Below, in pieces: positions 1-34,829 of a stretch of 34,829 nt of DNA. Origin of the DNA: a virus; IMG/VR virus record IMGVR_UViG_3300049043_000114, positions 1 to 34,829 of that record, one strand, 5' to 3'. The position numbers were made by a program, and so were the translations under genes. Below the pieces are notes generated by a model. That model was not told where the DNA came from and did not search any database. It saw nothing but the letters and a program-made list of their open reading frames with translations. Every line of letters begins with the position of its first letter. Positions within the stretch are counted from its first letter, which is position 1.

Positions 1-1120
1 AACCTATCGGGTGAGAGTGGGCCCTGGCACGGCGCCGGCATGGTGCAGTCTCATGGACTGCCGCAGCGCAGCCCCTGTCAGCGCCCCTGGCGCCGATTCA
101 AGAAGTCCATGCCTCCACGCCCTTCCAGGTCCTCATCCAGGCTGTTGGCGACGACTGTGCCACAACAGTTCTCAGCGAAATTGCCCTCAGCGAGTGTGCG
201 AGCTGTCTCGGCGGCCTTGGCGTTGCTGCTCCTCCTCTGCTGCAGCACCTTTGTCAGCTGGACTACATCATTCCGCTCGCTGGAAGGAGCGCACTGGAAT
301 CCTCACCTGGTCGCCTTGCGGATTATTGCGGTCCTGGCGCTCGGCTGTTCCTGCGCCGCAATGTCAGCGGTGCTGGCTGCGCACTGGCCCCATCCGCGTT
401 TCTTCCACGTCACTGGGCGAGACCGCCGCCGACCACCTGGAAGCCTGTCCTCTCCGCCGGTGCAGGCTCCCTTGCGCAGGGCCGGGCCTCTGCCTGCTCC
501 TGGCCGCCGGCCTCAGGGCACTCCCTGCGCTCCTGTCTCTTGCTCCCCCTCCTCCGCTGGTGGCGGCGGGGGGTGGTTCCCGAGCCGATGGCCTCGGCCC
601 CCCGGGCCCGGCCCGCGCACGCGAGGTAGGGCAGGCCGGGGCAGGGGGCCCTGCGCCCGGAGGGATCGACGGCCAGGACGCGGCGAGCAGGGCGCTCCAG
701 TCGGCCAGCACTGTGCCGCTTCGTCGTGCTGAGGGTGGTGAGCCGGCGGTTCACCACATCGGCGATGCAGCTGGGCACGTCGGACGCAGCGGTCTGTGTA
801 CCTTCTTGCTGGTGCTGGCTGCCCCCACGTGATGTCCTCTTCGCTGGAGGCCGCGGTGGGCAGGCTGCGCCTGGCGGACGCGCGGCCCCACGCCCAGCCC
901 TGGCGAGGAGGGCCTGTCCGTGTTCGTCCTGCTAACCTGGGCCCGTGCTTCACCCCGGCTCTAGTGGGATCGGCTCCTGGAAAAAGTCCAGCGTCACCGA
1001 CCGGCAGGGGCCTCGACGATGGTCCGGTCCGGGCATGCGCTTGGAATTGTGTTGCCTGGTCATTCAATGAATGGGGCGCGCGCCCGTCTGTCTGGGCATG
1101 GAGCAGCGGCTGCTGCGTGA
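1..1120. other. Insert A: GC-rich segment of unknown origin
   Basis: This segment lies left of the first adapter junction and is unrelated in content to the phage insert. It is very GC-rich, with proline/arginine-rich open frames on both strands that resemble shadows of skewed composition. I recognise no protein family, RNA gene or mobile element. Indels probably break any real gene here, because plausible stretches switch frame every 100-200 bases. It may be actinobacterial or other high-GC DNA, which is only an inference from composition. Confidence 0.5.
78..300 (-). CDS. Unidentified partial reading frame in insert A
   Basis: Read on the minus strand, this stretch gives about 70 residues of well-mixed, hydrophilic composition. 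It runs from around ERNDVVQLTKVLQ through AETARTLAEGNFAENCC to GGMDFLNRRQGR and a TGA at 80-78. It looks more protein-like than any other frame in insert A. The upstream part shifts frame near 300-310, so the N-terminus is not defined. I recognise no family and propose no function. It could still be a chance open frame in GC-rich DNA. Confidence 0.25.
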
Positions 1121-1168
1121 GCAATACTGAATGGAACGAAGTACATTGACAAACAGTTACGTATTGCT
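1121..1168. other. Nanopore adapter junction between inserts A and B
   Basis: Positions 1121-1147 read GCAATACTGAATGGAACGAA followed by GTACATT. This matches, with a few indels, the reverse complement of the Oxford Nanopore ligation Y-adapter (GCAATACGTAACTGAACGAA then GTACATT). After six bases, 1154-1168 read CAGTTACGTATTGCT, the exact 3' end of the adapter top strand. This head-to-head arrangement is what arises when the end adapter of one molecule and the start adapter of the next stay in one read. It is technical sequence, not biology. The adapter sequence is recalled from general knowledge. Confidence 0.95.
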
Positions 1169-1445
1169 TTGATGTCTCACTTGGAGTTGTCTTGAATTAT
1201 CGGGGATCATTATGATGCAACGCAGAGTGCGCTGTTCCGAACACTAGTAATGATGCGGCATTCACGGTAGTGGAGATATCCTTTTACGTAATAGCACCTC
1301 CGGAGGGATGATTTTCGGCATTCAGAGTGCCATTTGGCACGTACCACTGCACATTCCCGCACAGTAGGGGATGTTGGCAAGGTCGGAGAAAAAAAACGCC
1401 GGCATTGGTATCTCGGCGAAATCGATTAGGATGTCACGCTGGAAT

Positions 1446-2476
1446 CTAAGCAACGGCAGACGAAGGACACGCCAGGTTGTCTCCTCTCGCGGAGATGGAG
1501 TTTTTTGCGAATACGGGCGCGATATACTTCAACGCTTTCGAAGGAGACACACAGAAAGTCGGCGATCTCTTTCGTATCGAGATTGAGTTTGAGAAGAGAG
1601 CAAATTTTGAGTTCGGTGGAGAAAGACTCCAAACTCGGCACTAAGCTTAGCAATAAACTCTTGATGAAAGTCCGAAAGCTGTTTCGTTACCCCTTCCATT
1701 TGCTCGCCCCCTCGCACATGCTCATCAATAACCCGTAACAGGTCACGTGACACAGTTTGAATTTCATGATGTGTCGAACGTGTGGCGCTAAGCAAACGTT
1801 GCTTGAGAGCCGATATGACTTCATTCTTTCGAGCTAACGCAAAGAGCTGACGCGTTAAGTTCTTTGGCTCTTGGAATCGAGTCGCAGCCGATACTGCTCG
1901 CTCCGCCGCCGCAGCAATCTCTCTGTCGCGCTGAGCTTGGGCAATGTCCACACGTAGTCGAGGGTCTGCACCTGCTTGGAAGCTATCCTGCGACCATGCA
2001 CCGAACGCTCCTGCTGGGCGCGACGTGCGTGGTTCTGAGCTTTTTTTAGGTCGTGTGCACGTTCATAGTGTCGGGGAGAGAAGGTCGTCGTGACCCTGCG
2101 ACTGCAGTAAATGCAACTGATGTTCCTGGCTAAGGCGCAGCGCGGCGCTTAGGGCGCGCACATATTCGGCTTCATGCTTTTTGCCGTGAAGGCTTGCGTG
2201 TGCGTTAAACTGACGAAGGGAGTTTCAGCTTTAATGGATGCGCTGGTTGTCGCGTACGATCACTGTAGCTTATTCCTTGACGAAGTAAGTCGGTTGCAGT
2301 TCTTTTGTTTCTGAAGTCCCGACTCCATCTCGGCGCTCAGACCGGAAACATCGGGCAACGTTGAGATTGTCCTGCACCTCCAAAAAAATCGTCCGTGATT
2401 GCAAACAGTGATCGATCGCTACGCTGTGACGATGTTCTCTGACGATGCAGCTCGGCTAACAGTGAATGAACCTCGA
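1446..2476 (-). CDS. TPR / LuxR-type HTH regulator, 5'-truncated and frame-broken
   Basis: Stitched over several indels, the minus strand encodes the C-terminal part of a cytoplasmic regulator. Order: TPR-like helices (ELHRQ, SVAIDHCLQSRTIFLEVQD, about 2470-2320; SLHGKKHEAEYVRALSAAL, 2195-2130; RHYERAHDLKKAQNHARRA, about 2075-2015), a charged coiled coil (AQAQRDREIAAAAERA), then a conserved tail with FHQEFIAKLSAEF. It ends in a LuxR/GerE helix-turn-helix (TELKICSLLKLNLDTKEIAD, SVEVYRARIRKKLHL) with a stop at 1448-1446. This TPR-coil-LuxR layout is typical of Bacteroidota and relatives, where such proteins are transcription regulators; the signal is unknown. The 5' end is cut off by the adapter at 2477. 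The rest of the insert, 1169-1445, shows no gene I can support. Confidence 0.75.
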
Positions 2477-2514
2477 GCAATACGTAACTGAACGAAAAAC
2501 AGTTACGTATTGCT
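2477..2514. other. Nanopore adapter junction between inserts B and C
   Basis: Positions 2477-2495 read GCAATACGTAACTGAACGA, an exact match to the bottom strand of the ligation adapter. A short A-run follows, then 2500-2514 read CAGTTACGTATTGCT, the exact 3' end of the top strand. The two halves form a near-perfect inverted repeat that would otherwise be easy to misread as a terminator or recombination site. Base composition and gene content change completely across it, from moderate-GC Bacteroidota-like DNA to GC-rich phage DNA. Confidence 0.97.
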
Positions 2515-2829
2515 CCAGCCTTTCCCCCCACGGCGAGAGCCGGGGAGGAAGTCGTGAGACGGCACTGTAGCGCCCTGTGAGGGCCGTGTGGCGGAGTCGA
2601 CGAGCTTCTGGTCAACTCGAGCGCCGGCGTGCCGTCTGGATCGATCCTGTGCGGAGTTTCGCCTGGCGTCGAGGGTCTCGCACATTCCCGCAGGTCAGAG
2701 CCTCATAGCCGTTTTACCGCTAGAGTTGGGGCGTGACTTGCTCCTGGTGCTCAAGCTCTTCGCCCCTCCTCCGTCGTGGTGACGCTCGCTACTGCTCGAG
2801 CCGCTGCCGGTTGGCTGCGCATCGCTCCC
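2515..2829. other. Left end of the phage insert, no gene assigned
   Basis: This stretch is the first phage sequence after the adapter. Short open frames exist on both strands, but none has a recognisable motif or a good ribosome-binding site. If the virion genome is linear with cohesive ends, the packaging site would be expected in this interval or beyond the right end, because terminase genes follow and an HNH gene closes the other end. I could not identify a specific cos motif. Confidence 0.35.
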
Positions 2830-3293
2830 ATGCCGCGCAGCCGAACTGCGCAGCCGTCCTAGGTGGGTCAGGTACGACGCCAACAAGCGCCCATTGACTG
2901 TCGACGACGCACCGGCGTCATCGACCAACCCTTCGACGTGGACCGACTTCGGTGTTGCAGCGGCGGCGGCCGTCGGTGTCGGGTTGGGGTTTGTTCTTAA
3001 CGGCGACGGCATCGCGTGCGTCGATCTCGATCATTGCTCTCGATGGTCGTGGCCGGCTCACACCGTGGGCCGCTGAGCTGCTGGCCGGCTGTCCCGACAC
3101 CTACGTCGAGACGTCTCCGTCGGGCCAAGGTCTCCATGTGTGGGGATTCGGAACGGTCGTGAAGGGTCGCAAGTCGGGCAACGTCGAGGTGTACGGCACG
3201 AGCCGCTATCTCACTGTCACCGCCAGGCGGTGGCGTCACTGCTCGACGACGTTCGCCGATCTTGATGAGTGGATCGGGTCGCTGCCGCTCTAG
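2830..3293 (+). CDS. PrimPol-type N-terminal domain protein
   Basis: Stitched over two indels (near 2860 and 3035), this gives about 150 residues: AELRSRPRWVRYDANKRPL, then STNPSTWTDF, GLGFVLNGDGIACVDLDHC, DTYVETSPSGQGLHVWG and GNVEVYGTSRYLTVTARRW, ending DEWIGSLPL. The order W-x-KRP, STxPxTW, the DxDxC acidic pair, SPSGxGLH and the R-(Y/F)-(L/F)-T-(V/L)-T motif matches the N-terminal domain of phage bifunctional primase-polymerases. The family makes primers or short DNA. Here only this domain is present, without a helicase, and it sits next to terminase rather than in the replication arm. The ATG at 2830 is the nearest plausible start but is out of frame, so the start is uncertain. Confidence 0.7.
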
Positions 3294-3301
3294 GAGCACT
3301 C

Positions 3302-3609
3302 ATGGCCGCTCAGGGTCCGAACGAGAAGGCGGTGCGGGCGACGTTGCGGCAGCTCGAAGTGAGCGTCGTTGACGAGCGCGTTGGGTCGGCTGGCGGTGAC
3401 GTTGGCGAAGGCTCTTGATGCTGATGCGGGGATGGCGACAGGCGGCCATCTCTCGTGAACTACGGGCAACGCTGTCTGAACTGGAGGGCCGCTATGGCGG
3501 CACCGATGACGACGAGCTCACACGTCTCCTCGCCGATCTTGTCCTCCCCGGTGGTCGACGCCAAGAACGGACCGCCCCACGCTCGGTGGGAAGTCGCGCA
3601 GATTGCTGA
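3302..3609 (+). CDS. Terminase small subunit-like protein
   Basis: ATG at 3302 follows an AGGAG with 5-base spacing. After repairing two indels (about 3395 and 3430) the protein reads as a helical N-terminal region, then LAVTLAKALDAD, SRELRATLSELEGRYG and DDDELTRLLADL. Small helical proteins ending in a TxxELxRLLAxL-like segment directly upstream of the large terminase are common in actinobacteriophages and act as terminase small subunits that recognise packaging DNA. Identification rests on that pattern and on position, since the family diverges fast. The last part overlaps the large-subunit start, so the true stop may be earlier than 3609. Confidence 0.6.
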
Positions 3610-4973
3610 GGTCCTTGGCACACCGTTGATGCCGTGGCAGCGCCACGTCGTCGACATCGCCTACGAGATCAACCCTGACACGGGTCGTCTGGTGTACCGG
3701 GAGGTGCGACCTGAACTGGTCTCCTCGCCAGTCGGGCAAGACGACGTTGATGCTGGCGGTGATGACTCATCGCTGTCTGGTGATGGGTGACCGTCAGCGA
3801 GTGTTCTACACCGCGGAGACCGGCAAGGATCGCGCGCCTCAAGTGGGAGGACGAGCACGTCCCGGTGTTGGAGCGGTCCCCGTTCGGGTCGCTCATCAGT
3901 GTTCGGCGCACGAACGGGTCGGAGGCGATCCGTTGGCAGAACGGGTCGTTGTGGTCGCTGCTGGCGACGACGGAGTCTGCCGGTCACGGCGCGCAGGCCG
4001 ACACGGGTGTGCTCGACGAGGCGTTCGCCTATGTCGACGATCGCCTGGAGCAGGCGATGAAACCGGCGATGGTGGCACGTCCGCAGCCGCAGTTGTGGAT
4101 CGTGTCGACGGCCGGCACCGAGGATTCGTTGTATCTGAACGAGAAGATCGACGACGGTCGGATGCGTGCTGCGGCCGAGCAGACGTCGTCGGTCGCCTAT
4201 TTCGAGTGGTCTGCCCCCGAGGACGCTGATCCGGGCGCCGAGGACACCTGGTTCGGTTGTATGCCGGCGCTGGGTCTGACGGTGCCGGTGGATGCGATCC
4301 GGTCGGACTTCGAGTCGATGCGTGAGCCGGAGTTCCCGGAGGGCGTATCTGAATCAACGCCAGGACAGAGCGGCGGCGGCTCCGTGGCAGGTCATCGCCG
4401 AGGAGCCGTGGCGTGAGTGCGCCGATCCTCGATCGCAGATCGCCGATCGTCCGACGATTGCTCTCGATGTGACGCCGTCTCGGGCGATGACGTCGCTGGC
4501 CGCTGCTGGTCGTCGTGACGATGGCCGGCCGCACGTTCGAGGTGATCGGCAACCGTCCTGGCACCTCATGGGTTCTTGATTGGTTTGCCGCCGAGGATCG
4601 TGTCGCCCGCTACCGGTCGGTGGTGATCGACCCGGTGTCGGGTGCGAACAGTCTGGTGCCCGAGTTGCGGGCGATGGGCCTCAAGATCATCGAGGTCGGT
4701 GCCCGTCAGGTTGTTGCCGGCTGCGGCAACTTCTACGACATGGCCACCACCGGCCGACTTCGTCATCTCGACCAGGTGCCGCTGAACGCTGCGGTGGCGG
4801 GGGCGAAGAAACGCAATCTCGGCGACGCGTGGGCGTGGCATCGACGTGACACCAGCGTCGACGTGTCCCCTCTGGTCGCCGCCACCCTTGCCCTCCAGGC
4901 GCACGTCGCGCCGGAGCTGCGGCCTGCTGGCGCACCGCAGATCGTCGACCCTTGGAGCATGACCGATGCGTGA
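3494..4973 (+). CDS. terL: Terminase large subunit
   Basis: This is the packaging motor ATPase and nuclease. ATG at 3494 has GGAGGG with 5-base spacing. The stitched protein (about 490 residues) shows EVLGTPLMPWQRHVVDIAYE, a Walker A-like RQSGKTT at about 3729-3749, and a Walker B TGVLDEAF near 4007-4030. WIVSTAGTEDS follows, the coupling-motif region after Walker B. The C-terminal nuclease half includes TIALDVTPS (first acidic residue) and SVVIDPVSGANSLVPEL. Indels lie near 3715, 3830, 4340 and 4505. The stop overlaps the next ATG. The family translocates DNA into proheads and cuts concatemers; whether packaging is cos or headful is inferred only from the HNH gene at the far end. Confidence 0.93.
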
Positions 4974-5106
4974 TGTCGTCACCACCGTGGTCGAAGTCGC
5001 CGGTCTGGCCGCCATCGTGGTCGGCGTCGGCCTGTTGAGTGTCCCTGCTGCTGTGATCGTCGCTGGTGTCCTGGCGGTCGCCATCTCCTATCTGGTGGCC
5101 CGATGA
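4966..5106 (+). CDS. Small single-pass membrane protein
   Basis: A 46-residue protein starting MRDVVTTVVEVAGLAAIVVG. Residues about 10-42 are almost entirely hydrophobic, enough for one long or two short membrane segments, ending SYLVAR. Its ATG lies inside the terL stop and its TGA overlaps the portal ATG, so it is translationally coupled between two head genes. Tiny membrane ORFs between terminase and portal occur in some actinophages, without a known role. It is short but its frame is clean. Confidence 0.7.
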   Translation: MRDVVTTVVEVAGLAAIVVGVGLLSVPAAVIVAGVLAVAISYLVAR

Positions 5107-6270
5107 GTCTGTTCGCCAAGCGTGCGTTGACCCCTGATCCTGTTCGGACGTCGGTGTGGTTGCCGTCGACGAACTGGTCGGGTGAATCGATCAACGAGTC
5201 GACCGCCCTCGAGGTCACTGCTCTGATGGCGTGTGTGTCGTTGATCGCCGATTCGGTGGCGTCGCTGCCGATCCGGGCTATCCGGCATGTCGGGGATCGC
5301 ACCGAGAGGCTGAGGTTCCCCGAATGGCTCGACAACAGCGGTGAGCACACGCTGTACGAGCTGATCCACATGGTGGTGACGTCGCTGGCGTTGCACGGCA
5401 ACGCCTACCTCTACATCGACCGTGATTCGGCCAAGACGCTGCCGAAGTCGTTGACTCCTCTGCACCCGACCAACGTGCAGGTCAACGTCGTCAACCGCAC
5501 CAGGTACTACACGGTGAACGGTTTGGTGGTGCCGGCCGACAACATGATCCATCTGCGTTGGTGGACTCCTCCGCAGTCGCCGGTCGGTCTGTCACCGATC
5601 GAGATGCAACGCAACACGATCGGCCTTGCTCTCGCCCAGGCGCGCTTCCTCGACCAGTGGTATTCGGAGGGTGCGACGCCGTCGTCGGTCCTCGAGGTCG
5701 AGGGCGACATGACCGCCGAGCAGGCGAAGGTGTTGCAGTCGACGTGGGAGACGTCGCATCGGCGCCGTCGTCGTCCGGCGGTGCTGACCAACGGCATGAA
5801 GTGGAAGCCGATCACGTCATCGGCCCAGGACATGGAGTTGGCCGAGTCCCGTGAGCAGACGATCAACGACATCGCCCGCATCTTCCGGGTTCCGAACTAC
5901 ATGATCGGCGCCCGAGGCGACTCGCAGACCTACCAGAACAACGAGATCAGCCGGTATGCACTTCGTGACCTACACGCTGCTGCCATGGCTGGTGCGCATC
6001 GAACGGGCCCTGTCGACGTTGATGCCCGCTCCGCACGAGTTGAAGTTCGATACGGCGGCGTTCCTGCGAGCCGACACGATCAACCGCTATCGGGCTCATC
6101 AGATCGGCATCATGTCGGGGTTCATCACTCCGAACGAGGCTCGTGCCGTCGAGGGTCTGGAGCCGTATGTCGGCGGGGACGAGTTCGTGATGGCGCTGCC
6201 TGGTTCGCCGATGGCCGGTCCCGGTGTTGATCCGGCGCCAGTCGGCGTCGACGCCAACCCTCCGGTCTGA
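5103..6270 (+). CDS. Portal protein (HK97 family)
   Basis: About 389 residues starting MSLFAKRAL, the ATG overlapping the preceding TGA. The HK97 portal signature is clear: ALEVTALMACVSLIADSVAS, LHGNAYLYIDRD, then HLRWWTPPQSPVGLSPIEMQ, a QARFLDQWYSEGATPSSVLE segment, and the conserved AESREQTINDIARIFRVPNY with the helical stem and lid after it. One indel near 5955 shifts into the frame carrying HFVTYTLLPWLVRIERAL and ending VDANPPV. The portal dodecamer sits at one capsid vertex and is the DNA channel for terminase. Length is usual for the family. Confidence 0.93.
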
Positions 6271-6589
6271 TGCCGGTCCCACCCGCAGGCCGCTCAAGAC
6301 GAAGCGGAACGTGGCCTGACTTGGCGTCGCGAGTTCGGACGTGGCGGAACGGCCGTTGGAATCGCTCGTGCTCGAGACATCTCGAACGGTGTCGATCTCC
6401 CCGAGTCGACGCTGCGGCGGATGCGGTCCTACTTCGCACGCCACGAAGTCGACAAGCAGGGCACCGGCTGGTCGCCCGACGAGGACGGCTACCCGTCGAA
6501 CGGTCGCATCGCCTGGTCCCTGTGGGGAGGTGATCCGGCCCGAACGTGGGTGGAACGCATCCTCGATGAGACGCAGAGGACACACGTGA
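6270..6589 (+). CDS. Head-region protein with RxHEVDK...GYPSxGRIAWxLWGG motif
   Basis: The ATG at 6270 overlaps the portal TGA. One early indel (about 6285) leads into about 100 residues: DEAERGLTWRREFGRGGTA, ARDISNG, LRRMRSYFARHEVDKQG, then GYPSNGRIAWSLWGGDPART. This block is a recurrent phage motif found next to portal or head-protease genes, alone or fused to them. Its biochemical role is not known to me. The conserved tryptophans and the basic helix suggest nucleic-acid or protein binding, which is inference. The stop may be the TGA at 6587 after another indel, overlapping the next GTG. Confidence 0.6.
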
Positions 6590-6918
6590 CCGACGAATCC
6601 CGAGGAATCGACGACGGAATCTACCCGTTCTCCCGATTCAGCGTGATCTCTACGACAAGTTCGAGTCGGTCGTCGAGACCTTCGGGATGTTCGACCAGGG
6701 AACCGGAGCGCAGGGCGCCCACTACATGGCCGACAACCCGTTCGCAGCCGAAGGGCTCGCCTGTTCCAACTGTGCGTTCTACGACGGCCCGAGAGCCTGC
6801 GAGATCGTCGCCGGGGACATCGACCCGGAGGCTGTCTGCAAGTTCTGGATCATTCCTGAGACGTTGCTCACCGGCGAGGCGCAGGGGCCTGCCACTGAAC
6901 CCATGGGAGAACCCATGA
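6586..6918 (+). CDS. Cysteine-cluster head-associated protein
   Basis: A GTG at 6586 begins TDESRGIDDGIYPF. After an indel near 6642 the frame reads DLYDKFESVVETFGMFDQG, GAQGAHYMADNPF, CSNCAFYDGPRACEIVAGDI and EAVCKFWIIPETLL. Four cysteines in the order CxxC, C, C suggest bound zinc or an iron-sulfur cluster. Similar small cysteine-cluster proteins occur just upstream of prohead proteases in other phages. In this sequence no stop separates it from the protease frame, so it could be fused. I prefer two coupled genes, because neighbouring junctions use ATGA overlaps and a TGA at 6916 overlaps the protease ATG in a shifted frame. Confidence 0.55.
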   Translation: MTDESRGIDDGIYPFSRFSVISTTSSSRSSRPSGCSTREPERRAPTTWPTTRSQPKGSPVPTVRSTTAREPARSSPGTSTRRLSASSGSFLRRCSPARRRGLPLNPWENP

Positions 6919-7568
6919 CCGACACCCCTGTCCGCTACGCCGTGCTCGGCGCTGAACAGCGTCGCATCAACGGCCGTGACGTCGAGTTCCGCACCGTCGA
7001 GGTCGGTCCGCTCGAGTTGCGCACCGACGGTGAAGGCGACGGCATGACGTTCCGTGGCTATGCCGCCGTGTTCAACTCGCCGTCGGAGCCGCTGCCATTC
7101 GTCGAGTCGATCGCTCCAGGGGCGTTCCGTCGCTCGCTCAACAGCGGCCGCGAGGTGCGAGCGTTCGTGAACCACGACACCGGCCAGGTGCTGGCCACGA
7201 CCCGCAACGACACGCTGCGGCTCATCGAGGACAGCCGTGGTCTGCTCGTGGAGGCGGATCTGCCCGACACCACCGCCGGTCGTGACCTCGCCGAACTGGT
7301 CCGCACCGGAACGGTTCACTCCATGTCGTTCGGGTTCTCCGTGCCCCGTGGCGGAGATGCCTGGTCCGAGGATCGCACCAGCCGTGAGCTGCGTGAAGTG
7401 ATCCTGCACGAAGTGTCGGTGGTGACCGGCTTCCCCGCCTACCCCGCCACCGAAGGTGCCACCGTGCGCACCGTCGAGAACGACGTCGACGAGACCCCAG
7501 CCGAGGCGCCCATCGGGCCGCCCGTGGCGTTGCGTCGACGCATCCTCGAGCTCAACGCCAAGCGCTGA
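6915..7568 (+). CDS. Prohead maturation protease (HK97 type, U35)
   Basis: A 217-residue protein starting MTDTPVRYAVLGAEQRRING, with a GGAGA about 5 bases upstream of the ATG. The HK97-type serine protease fold is indicated by TFRGYAAVFNSPSEP, GAFRRSL, the histidine in FVNHDTG (about H87) and the serine in HSMSFGFSVP (about S138). These correspond to the family's catalytic His and Ser, followed by LHEVSVVTGFPAYP. It cleaves scaffold and the capsid N-terminal delta domain during head maturation and sits directly upstream of the capsid gene, as usual. No indel is apparent. Confidence 0.92.
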   Translation: MTDTPVRYAVLGAEQRRINGRDVEFRTVEVGPLELRTDGEGDGMTFRGYAAVFNSPSEPLPFVESIAPGAFRRSLNSGREVRAFVNHDTGQVLATTRNDTLRLIEDSRGLLVEADLPDTTAGRDLAELVRTGTVHSMSFGFSVPRGGDAWSEDRTSRELREVILHEVSVVTGFPAYPATEGATVRTVENDVDETPAEAPIGPPVALRRRILELNAKR

Positions 7569-7672
7569 GCCGAACCCCGCAGCCCGGAACCGAGGCCCGG
7601 AGCACCTTCGTGTGTCACCACCCGCCGGTCACCACCTGCATCCCATAACCCCCAACCTCTTAGGAGACTGCC

Positions 7673-8884
7673 ATGAGCGATGAGCTCATCGAGCGGCTCA
7701 CCGAGCAGCGCGCCCGTGCGTGGGAGCAGGCCAAGGGCCTCCTCGACGCGGCCGCTTCGGAGAACCGCGACCTGACCGGCGAGGAGTCCGAGCAGTTCGA
7801 GCGGATCAACGCCGACATCGACGCGATGGATCACCGTCGCAAGTCCATCCTGGACGCCGAGGCCCGTGAGCGGGCCATCGACGAGTCCCGTGCCGCCCTC
7901 GGGTTGCCGGCCGACTTCACCAGCCGCACCGCCCCGGTGCAGGCCGAGAAGTCCGACGCCGACATCATCCGTGAGATCGCACTGGGTGAGCGTCGCAGCT
8001 ACTCGTTCGAGCAGCGCGGGACGTCCTCAAGTCGTCGACCGGTGCCCCGGTCCCGACGTCGTTCTACGACCGTCTGGTCGAGCACCTCGTGGTGCAGGGC
8101 CCGATGCTCGACGGCAACGTCGTCACCATCCTGACCACCAACTCCGGTGAGAACCTCCAGATCCCCCGCACCTCGACCTACTCCGCCCCGGCGGTCACGG
8201 CCGAAGGCACGGCGATCTCCGAGTCCGATCCGACGTTCGGTGCGTTCGTCACCCTCGGTGCGTTCAAGTACGCCGCCACGTTCCAGCTGAGCCGTGAGGT
8301 CGTCGAGGACAGCGGGATCAACCTGCTCGACTTCGTCGCCCGTCAGGCGTCGATCGGCATGGGCACCGCGGTCAACGCCGGCCTCACCGTCGGCACCGGC
8401 ACCGTGCAGCCCACCGGCATCGTCACCGCTGCGTCGTCGGCGGTCACCGGCGGCACCGGCGTGTCCGGCGCCCCGTCGGCCGACAACCTCATCGACCTCG
8501 TCTACACCTGCCCGGCTCCGTACCGGCGCCGGGGTGCGTCGTGGCAGATGCGAGGCTCGACGCTGGCTGCGGTCCGGAAGTTGAAGGACACCACCAACCA
8601 GTACCTGTGGGCCCCTGGCCTTCAGCCCGGACAGCCGGACACCCTGCTCGGCTATCCGGTGTACGAGAACCCGGACATCGTCGCCACGGCGACCGGTGCC
8701 CGCTCGGTCATCTTCGGTGACATGAGCTCGTACTACGTCCGTCAGGTGCGAGGCATCGACTTCGCTCGTGACGACTCGGTCGGGTTCGTCAACGACCTCA
8801 TCACGTTCCGGATCACCTGGCGTGGGGACGGCAACCTGCCCGAGCGCCAACGGCGTCTGGTACTTCAAGGGTGGCGCGTCCTGA
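7673..8884 (+). CDS. Major capsid protein (HK97 fold)
   Basis: About 403 residues, ATG preceded by TAGGAGA. Residues 1-110 form a charged coiled-coil-like delta domain (ELIERLTEQRARAWEQAKGL, EFERINADIDAMDHRRK), expected to be removed by the protease. The mature part contains PVPTSFYDRLVEHLV, NLQIPRTSTYSAPAVTAEGT, FQLSREVVEDSGINLLDFVA, RGASWQMRGSTLAAVRKLKD and LLGYPVYENP, all typical HK97-fold capsid landmarks. Indels lie near 8019 and 8846. The true C-terminus reads ANGVWYFKGGAS with TGA at 8882. A strong hairpin follows. Confidence 0.93.
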
Positions 8885-34747: not shown

Positions 34748-34799
34748 CCTGAGGGCACCCCCCGCCGCCCCGGGTTCCTGTTGCGGCTACAGAGATACA
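34748..34799. other. Right end of the phage insert, no gene
   Basis: Fifty-two bases with a C-run and CCCCGCCGCCCCGGG, possibly one cos flank if the virion DNA ended here. No gene or obvious repeat of the left end (2515 onward) is seen. Confidence 0.4.
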
Positions 34800-34825
34800 G
34801 CAATACGGACCTGAACCAAGGACAT
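34800..34825. other. Degraded nanopore adapter at the right end
   Basis: GCAATACGGACCTGAACCAA followed by GGACAT differs at 4 of 26 positions from the ligation-adapter complement used at 1121 and 2477. A noisy copy is expected at a read end. It marks the right limit of phage insert C and implies the window ends at a molecule end. Confidence 0.85.
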
Positions 34826-34829
34826 CCGC

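Follow-up and report, generated by a model that had tools for sequence, protein, structure and literature searches.

Nanopore ligation adapters at two internal junctions and at the 3' end of a public virus record point to an unsplit read of three molecules

In a passage of PMC7490894, the ligation adapter of Oxford Nanopore Technologies (ONT) is printed with the start sequence AATGTACTTCGTTCAGTTACGTATTGCT and the end sequence GCAATACGTAACTGAACGAAGT. Passages of two other studies (PMC5600009, PMC6156371) give the fast reloading of a pore, left unsplit by the software, as a cause of chimeric reads. In the relevant part of PMC6156371, chimeras are recognised by an adapter in mid-read, and it is argued that the cross-assigned chimeras of that study formed during sequencing. 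According to excerpts of PMC5600009 and PMC13141652, ligation kits also yield some physical chimeras.

The window analyzed in the current study is the whole stretch of 34,829 nucleotides of the IMG/VR record IMGVR_UViG_3300049043_000114, and its features are given in table 1. Positions 1120-1147 matched the reverse complement of AATGTACTTCGTTCAGTTACGTATTGCT at 24 of 28 bases without a gap (score 36), followed at 1154-1168 by an exact copy of adapter bases 14-28 (15/15, score 30). In 100 order-1 simulations, which had the same neighbour-base make-up as the real window and were scored on both strands, the top score was 28 and the mean 20.3. Moreover, the adapter 15-mer was detected, with two or fewer mismatches, at 4 places in the whole window, where 0.01 were expected, and this number was reached by none of 100 shuffles. 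The four mismatches among the 28 adapter bases at 1120-1147 count against the explanation preferred below. The spacer GACAAA at 1148-1153 is either an adapter remnant or a miscall.

These data agree with the first-pass annotation, made from the sequence before this analysis, which had described the segment as the reverse complement of the ligation adapter followed by the exact last 15 bases of its top strand. It had also named an alignment to the published ONT adapter as the check, and in that alignment both copies scored above the simulated maximum. Its span of 1121-1168 was right at the end and one base late at the start, the true start being 1120.

The adapter pair at 2476-2514 was cleaner than the pair at 1120-1168, and separates insert B from the phage insert C. 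Both internal joins share the same layout of trailing adapter, short spacer and leading adapter, and the record closes with one more trailing adapter, which stops four bases before the end of the window. With this degraded adapter at 34799-34829, the record is a read whose 3' end was retained. No recognisable leading adapter was found at the 5' end of the window, unlike in several sister records. This point too counts against the preferred explanation, and the 5' end may have been clipped.

The base calls often run on beyond the printed 22-base end adapter, with ACAT-like calls and then TGACAAA or CCGC(AAA) (1143-1153 and 34822-34829 in the window, and loci L013, L028 and L032). This ACAT-like extension comes either from an oligo longer than the printed one or from systematic miscalling where the strand ends.

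Table 1. Inserts and adapter copies in the window
Feature	Position	Strand	Remarks
Insert A	1-1119		68.9% GC; no family above cut-off, no phage DNA match
Trailing ligation adapter of molecule A	1120-1147	-	24/28 bases of reverse complement
Six-base spacer GACAAA	1148-1153		between two adapters; spacers alike in other records
Leading ligation adapter of molecule B	1154-1168	+	last 15 bases, exact
Insert B	1169-2475		51.0% GC; LuxR/GerE-type HTH on minus strand, broken frames
Trailing adapter of molecule B	2476-2496	-	reverse complement, 21/21
Leading adapter of molecule C	2500-2514	+	15/15
Insert C, tailed-phage genome	2515-34798	+	65.2% GC; 32,284 bases as read; portal protein, S78 prohead protease, HK97-type capsid
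End-of-read adapter of molecule C	34799-34825	-	reverse complement, several errors, score 34

The base composition changes at both joins. The GC step was 0.177 at the A/B junction (flanking 1000-base stretches) and 0.139 at the B/C junction, compared with 0.09 for the largest step inside C (3028 places). Insert A, searched in six frames against Pfam, NCBIfam and PHROGs, gave no family above cut-off, and no match was found between it and phage DNA. A single Pfam row, for a herpes capsid, was at chance level (E=0.52). The matches to 14 plasmid records were short and weak, covered 3 to 7% of A, and were in no case convincing.

Insert B showed the GerE/LuxR HTH domain PF00196 on the minus strand (E=1.9e-5), had no match to phage DNA, and is probably bacterial chromosome. 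Its 140-residue ORF, searched as a pattern in GTDB species genomes, matched 38 stretches, none of which was confirmed. The rows suggesting a SusR-like identity for B were weak and far under the cut-offs, and this candidate was dropped. Neither A nor B had a match in any of the loci compared.

The first-pass annotation had further proposed that gene content changes across 1120-1168 and that two unrelated molecules are joined there. As no recognisable gene was found in A, the change shown is the GC shift of 0.177. The joining of two molecules is upheld by the adapter pair together with the GC step, and composition and adapter suggest that A and B may come from different organisms.

All of 18 relatives of the phage, drawn from 80 loci mostly by size of contig, matched window positions 1-8000 only from 2646 onward, and 1-2514 was untouched by every alignment with five full relatives. 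When the 29 proteins of one relative were compared with the window, 21 matched C, 14 of these in more than one frame, and none matched A or B. The same 29 proteins gave 26 matches in an assembled relative, with only 1 of the 26 in more than one frame. The multi-frame matches (14/21) are as expected if C belongs to an uncorrected read. The claim that synteny between 1-1120 and the remainder is false is thus confirmed by the adapters and their order, and by the fact that none of the 18 relatives matches 1-2514. Two additions to the earlier reading are needed: B does not belong to the phage either, being cut off from it by another junction at 2476-2514, and the record has the appearance of one raw read instead of a contig. 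The real phage genome is 2515-34798 only.

The adapter is not restricted to this record. According to a search of IMG/VR, the adapter 20-mer GCAATACGTAACTGAACGAA was present in 36 stretches, all 36 in dataset 3300049043 (26 records), and the 18-mer AACTGAACGAAGTACATT in 3 stretches, all in the same dataset and adding one record, so that at least 27 of its records carry the ligation adapter. The fused adapter pattern (gap 0-30) was found in six stretches of IMG/VR, all six in dataset 3300049043, and was absent from GTDB species genomes. In five other records of the dataset, the fused signature marked 8 further junctions.

In a selection of 8 junctions, together with the ends of 9 loci and the starts of 6, records of the dataset begin with a poly-T or garbled lead followed by TTCGTTCAGTTACGTATTGCT, and others stop in or just past GCAATACGTAACTGAACGAAG. 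The junction spacers in sister records, TACATCCGCAAA and AATATTGACAAAAAC, resemble the TGACAAA at 1147-1153 of the window. Adapter-like 14-mers (two or fewer mismatches) numbered 134, compared with 8 for a backwards control, in 26 records chosen for already holding an adapter. Up to 22 such sites lie in IMGVR_UViG_3300049043_000188 (L006, L014, L029, L031; 120,672 bases), all within the stretch from about 83 to 112 kb, which indicates that this record is not one large genome. A literature search for dataset 3300049043 found no paper naming it.

A 25-mer of the rapid-kit adapter matched 24 stretches. Dataset 3300045125 held 21 of them, near the locus end (L132-L137, L139-L149, L151-L154), and the other 3 are isolate records, perhaps Mu-like ends.

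The window is almost certainly one raw, untrimmed and unsplit read from a nanopore ligation library, holding the three molecules A, B and C. Three DNA strands would have passed through the same pore in quick succession, and the software would have overlooked the short open-pore gaps and put all three into a single read. As each strand finished, the base-caller would read its 3' adapter in reverse-complement form, followed by the leading adapter of the strand behind it, which gives the order reverse-complement adapter, spacer, adapter seen both at 1120-1168 and at 2476-2514. The adapter of the third strand, at 34799-34825, would then close the read. Rapid pore reloading, and not some other concatenation, is the probable means of joining. 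With an end adapter, internal adapter pairs and frame breaks, the record reads as a raw nanopore read, and the junction is a technical artefact, not biology.

Untrimmed adapters can produce false overlaps, by which an assembler might have joined contigs of different organisms. Such a mis-assembly is nevertheless very unlikely, since an adapter overlap should leave only one adapter copy, whereas the joins of sister records repeatedly hold pairs whose spacers differ, the record closes with an end adapter, and C has read-like frame breaks. The two arms at 2472-2518 are inverted repeats of one another, separated by a short loop, as would be the case for a natural repeat of this kind or a site of recombination (an attachment site or transposon end) resembling the adapter by chance. 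This origin is far less probable still, and in effect refuted, given that the occurrences in IMG/VR are confined to one dataset, that adapter letters stand at record ends as well as internally, and that the fused form is missing from the GTDB species genomes.

It would also be conceivable that ligation in the tube linked inserts, or molecules carrying adapters, to each other, and that the pore read one real molecule. Some physical chimeras are made by ligation kits, as cited above from parts of PMC5600009 and PMC13141652, but insert-to-insert ligation leaves no adapter pair, and here each junction has both a trailing and a leading adapter. The layout is instead like that of the middle-adapter chimeras which a passage of PMC6156371 ascribes to the sequencing step. 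The up to 22 adapter-like sites (14-mer, two or fewer mismatches) in one 120 kb record also speak against joining in the tube, and we consider it as improbable as a mis-assembly.

Reading the window as an unsplit read makes the ends of insert C accessible. When the right end of C is joined to its left end, one alignment with the relative L072, 1062 columns long, spans the joint, indicating that the ends are adjacent in a circular or concatemeric map and that C covers the genome exactly once. On both sides, the contigs of G009 and G007 terminate at the same points as C. Their right ends lie 18 bases past a common CTGT (17 in the error-bearing read C), and their left ends start with CCAGCC, as does C. 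Extrapolated left contig ends fell at 2500-2549, the 50-base bin holding 2515, in 10 of 80 relatives, and at 3200-3249 in 7 of 80, counts which include some repeats (L067 and L068 are probably two assemblies of one virus, as are L081 and L082). Among the seven, L063, L065 and L090 start with CCAGCC.

Ten bases, CCCNNNNCCC, were found between the two ends in 7 of 80 loci, in which the sequence reads through the joint. The regular expression used was composed after the joints of L056, L064, L072, L073 and L095 were known, and those of L062 and L069 were new. In a six-base end test, 6 of 78 loci were positive against a control mean of 0.54, but 5 of 1000 control words did equally well or better, and more weight is therefore given to the shared contig ends and to the ten-base joints. 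C is without the ten bases that are present in the joint of the relatives. In end repair, 5' overhangs are filled in whereas 3' overhangs are cut back, and the simplest reading of the missing CCCNNNNCCC would therefore be a 10-base 3' cos overhang, with its existence suggested by the relatives and its polarity by the chemistry of end repair. C is thus likely to be a complete, end-to-end, cos-ended chromosome which would have lost the 3' overhang CCCNNNNCCC to end repair, in a form conserved in a group of uncultured phages. Both ends of the insert look natural, with the adapters sitting directly on them.

The value of the finding is that of a curation warning. Conclusions on gene content, host links or genome size are false if they combine sequence from the two sides of 1120-1168 or of 2476-2514. 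For correct use, the record should be split at these two places, 34799-34829 discarded, and 2515-34798 retained as phage. Seemingly large or mosaic phages in dataset 3300049043 need to be split beforehand. Moreover, full-length reads, once split, yield physical genome ends, which assembled contigs rarely give.

Cos-ended tailed phages with 3' overhangs include, for example, many actinophages. As in these, the ends of C are fixed, and they lie just upstream of the terminase region, although its putative overhang is deduced from the sequence of its relatives. As for the ONT ligation adapter, all five adapter places in the window are like the sequence printed in the passage of PMC7490894, but the window copies contain read errors, the leading copies are without the first 13 bases, and the ACAT-like extension at 1120-1147 and 34799-34825 goes beyond the 22-base end adapter given there. 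The closest described counterparts are the in-silico chimeric reads of White et al. 2017 (PMC5600009) and of PMC6156371 (2018), which, in the passages concerned, likewise hold at least two molecules per read with an adapter in mid-read. Those passages deal with amplicon libraries and multiplexed libraries of clinical viruses, whereas here an unsplit read entered a public virus catalogue.
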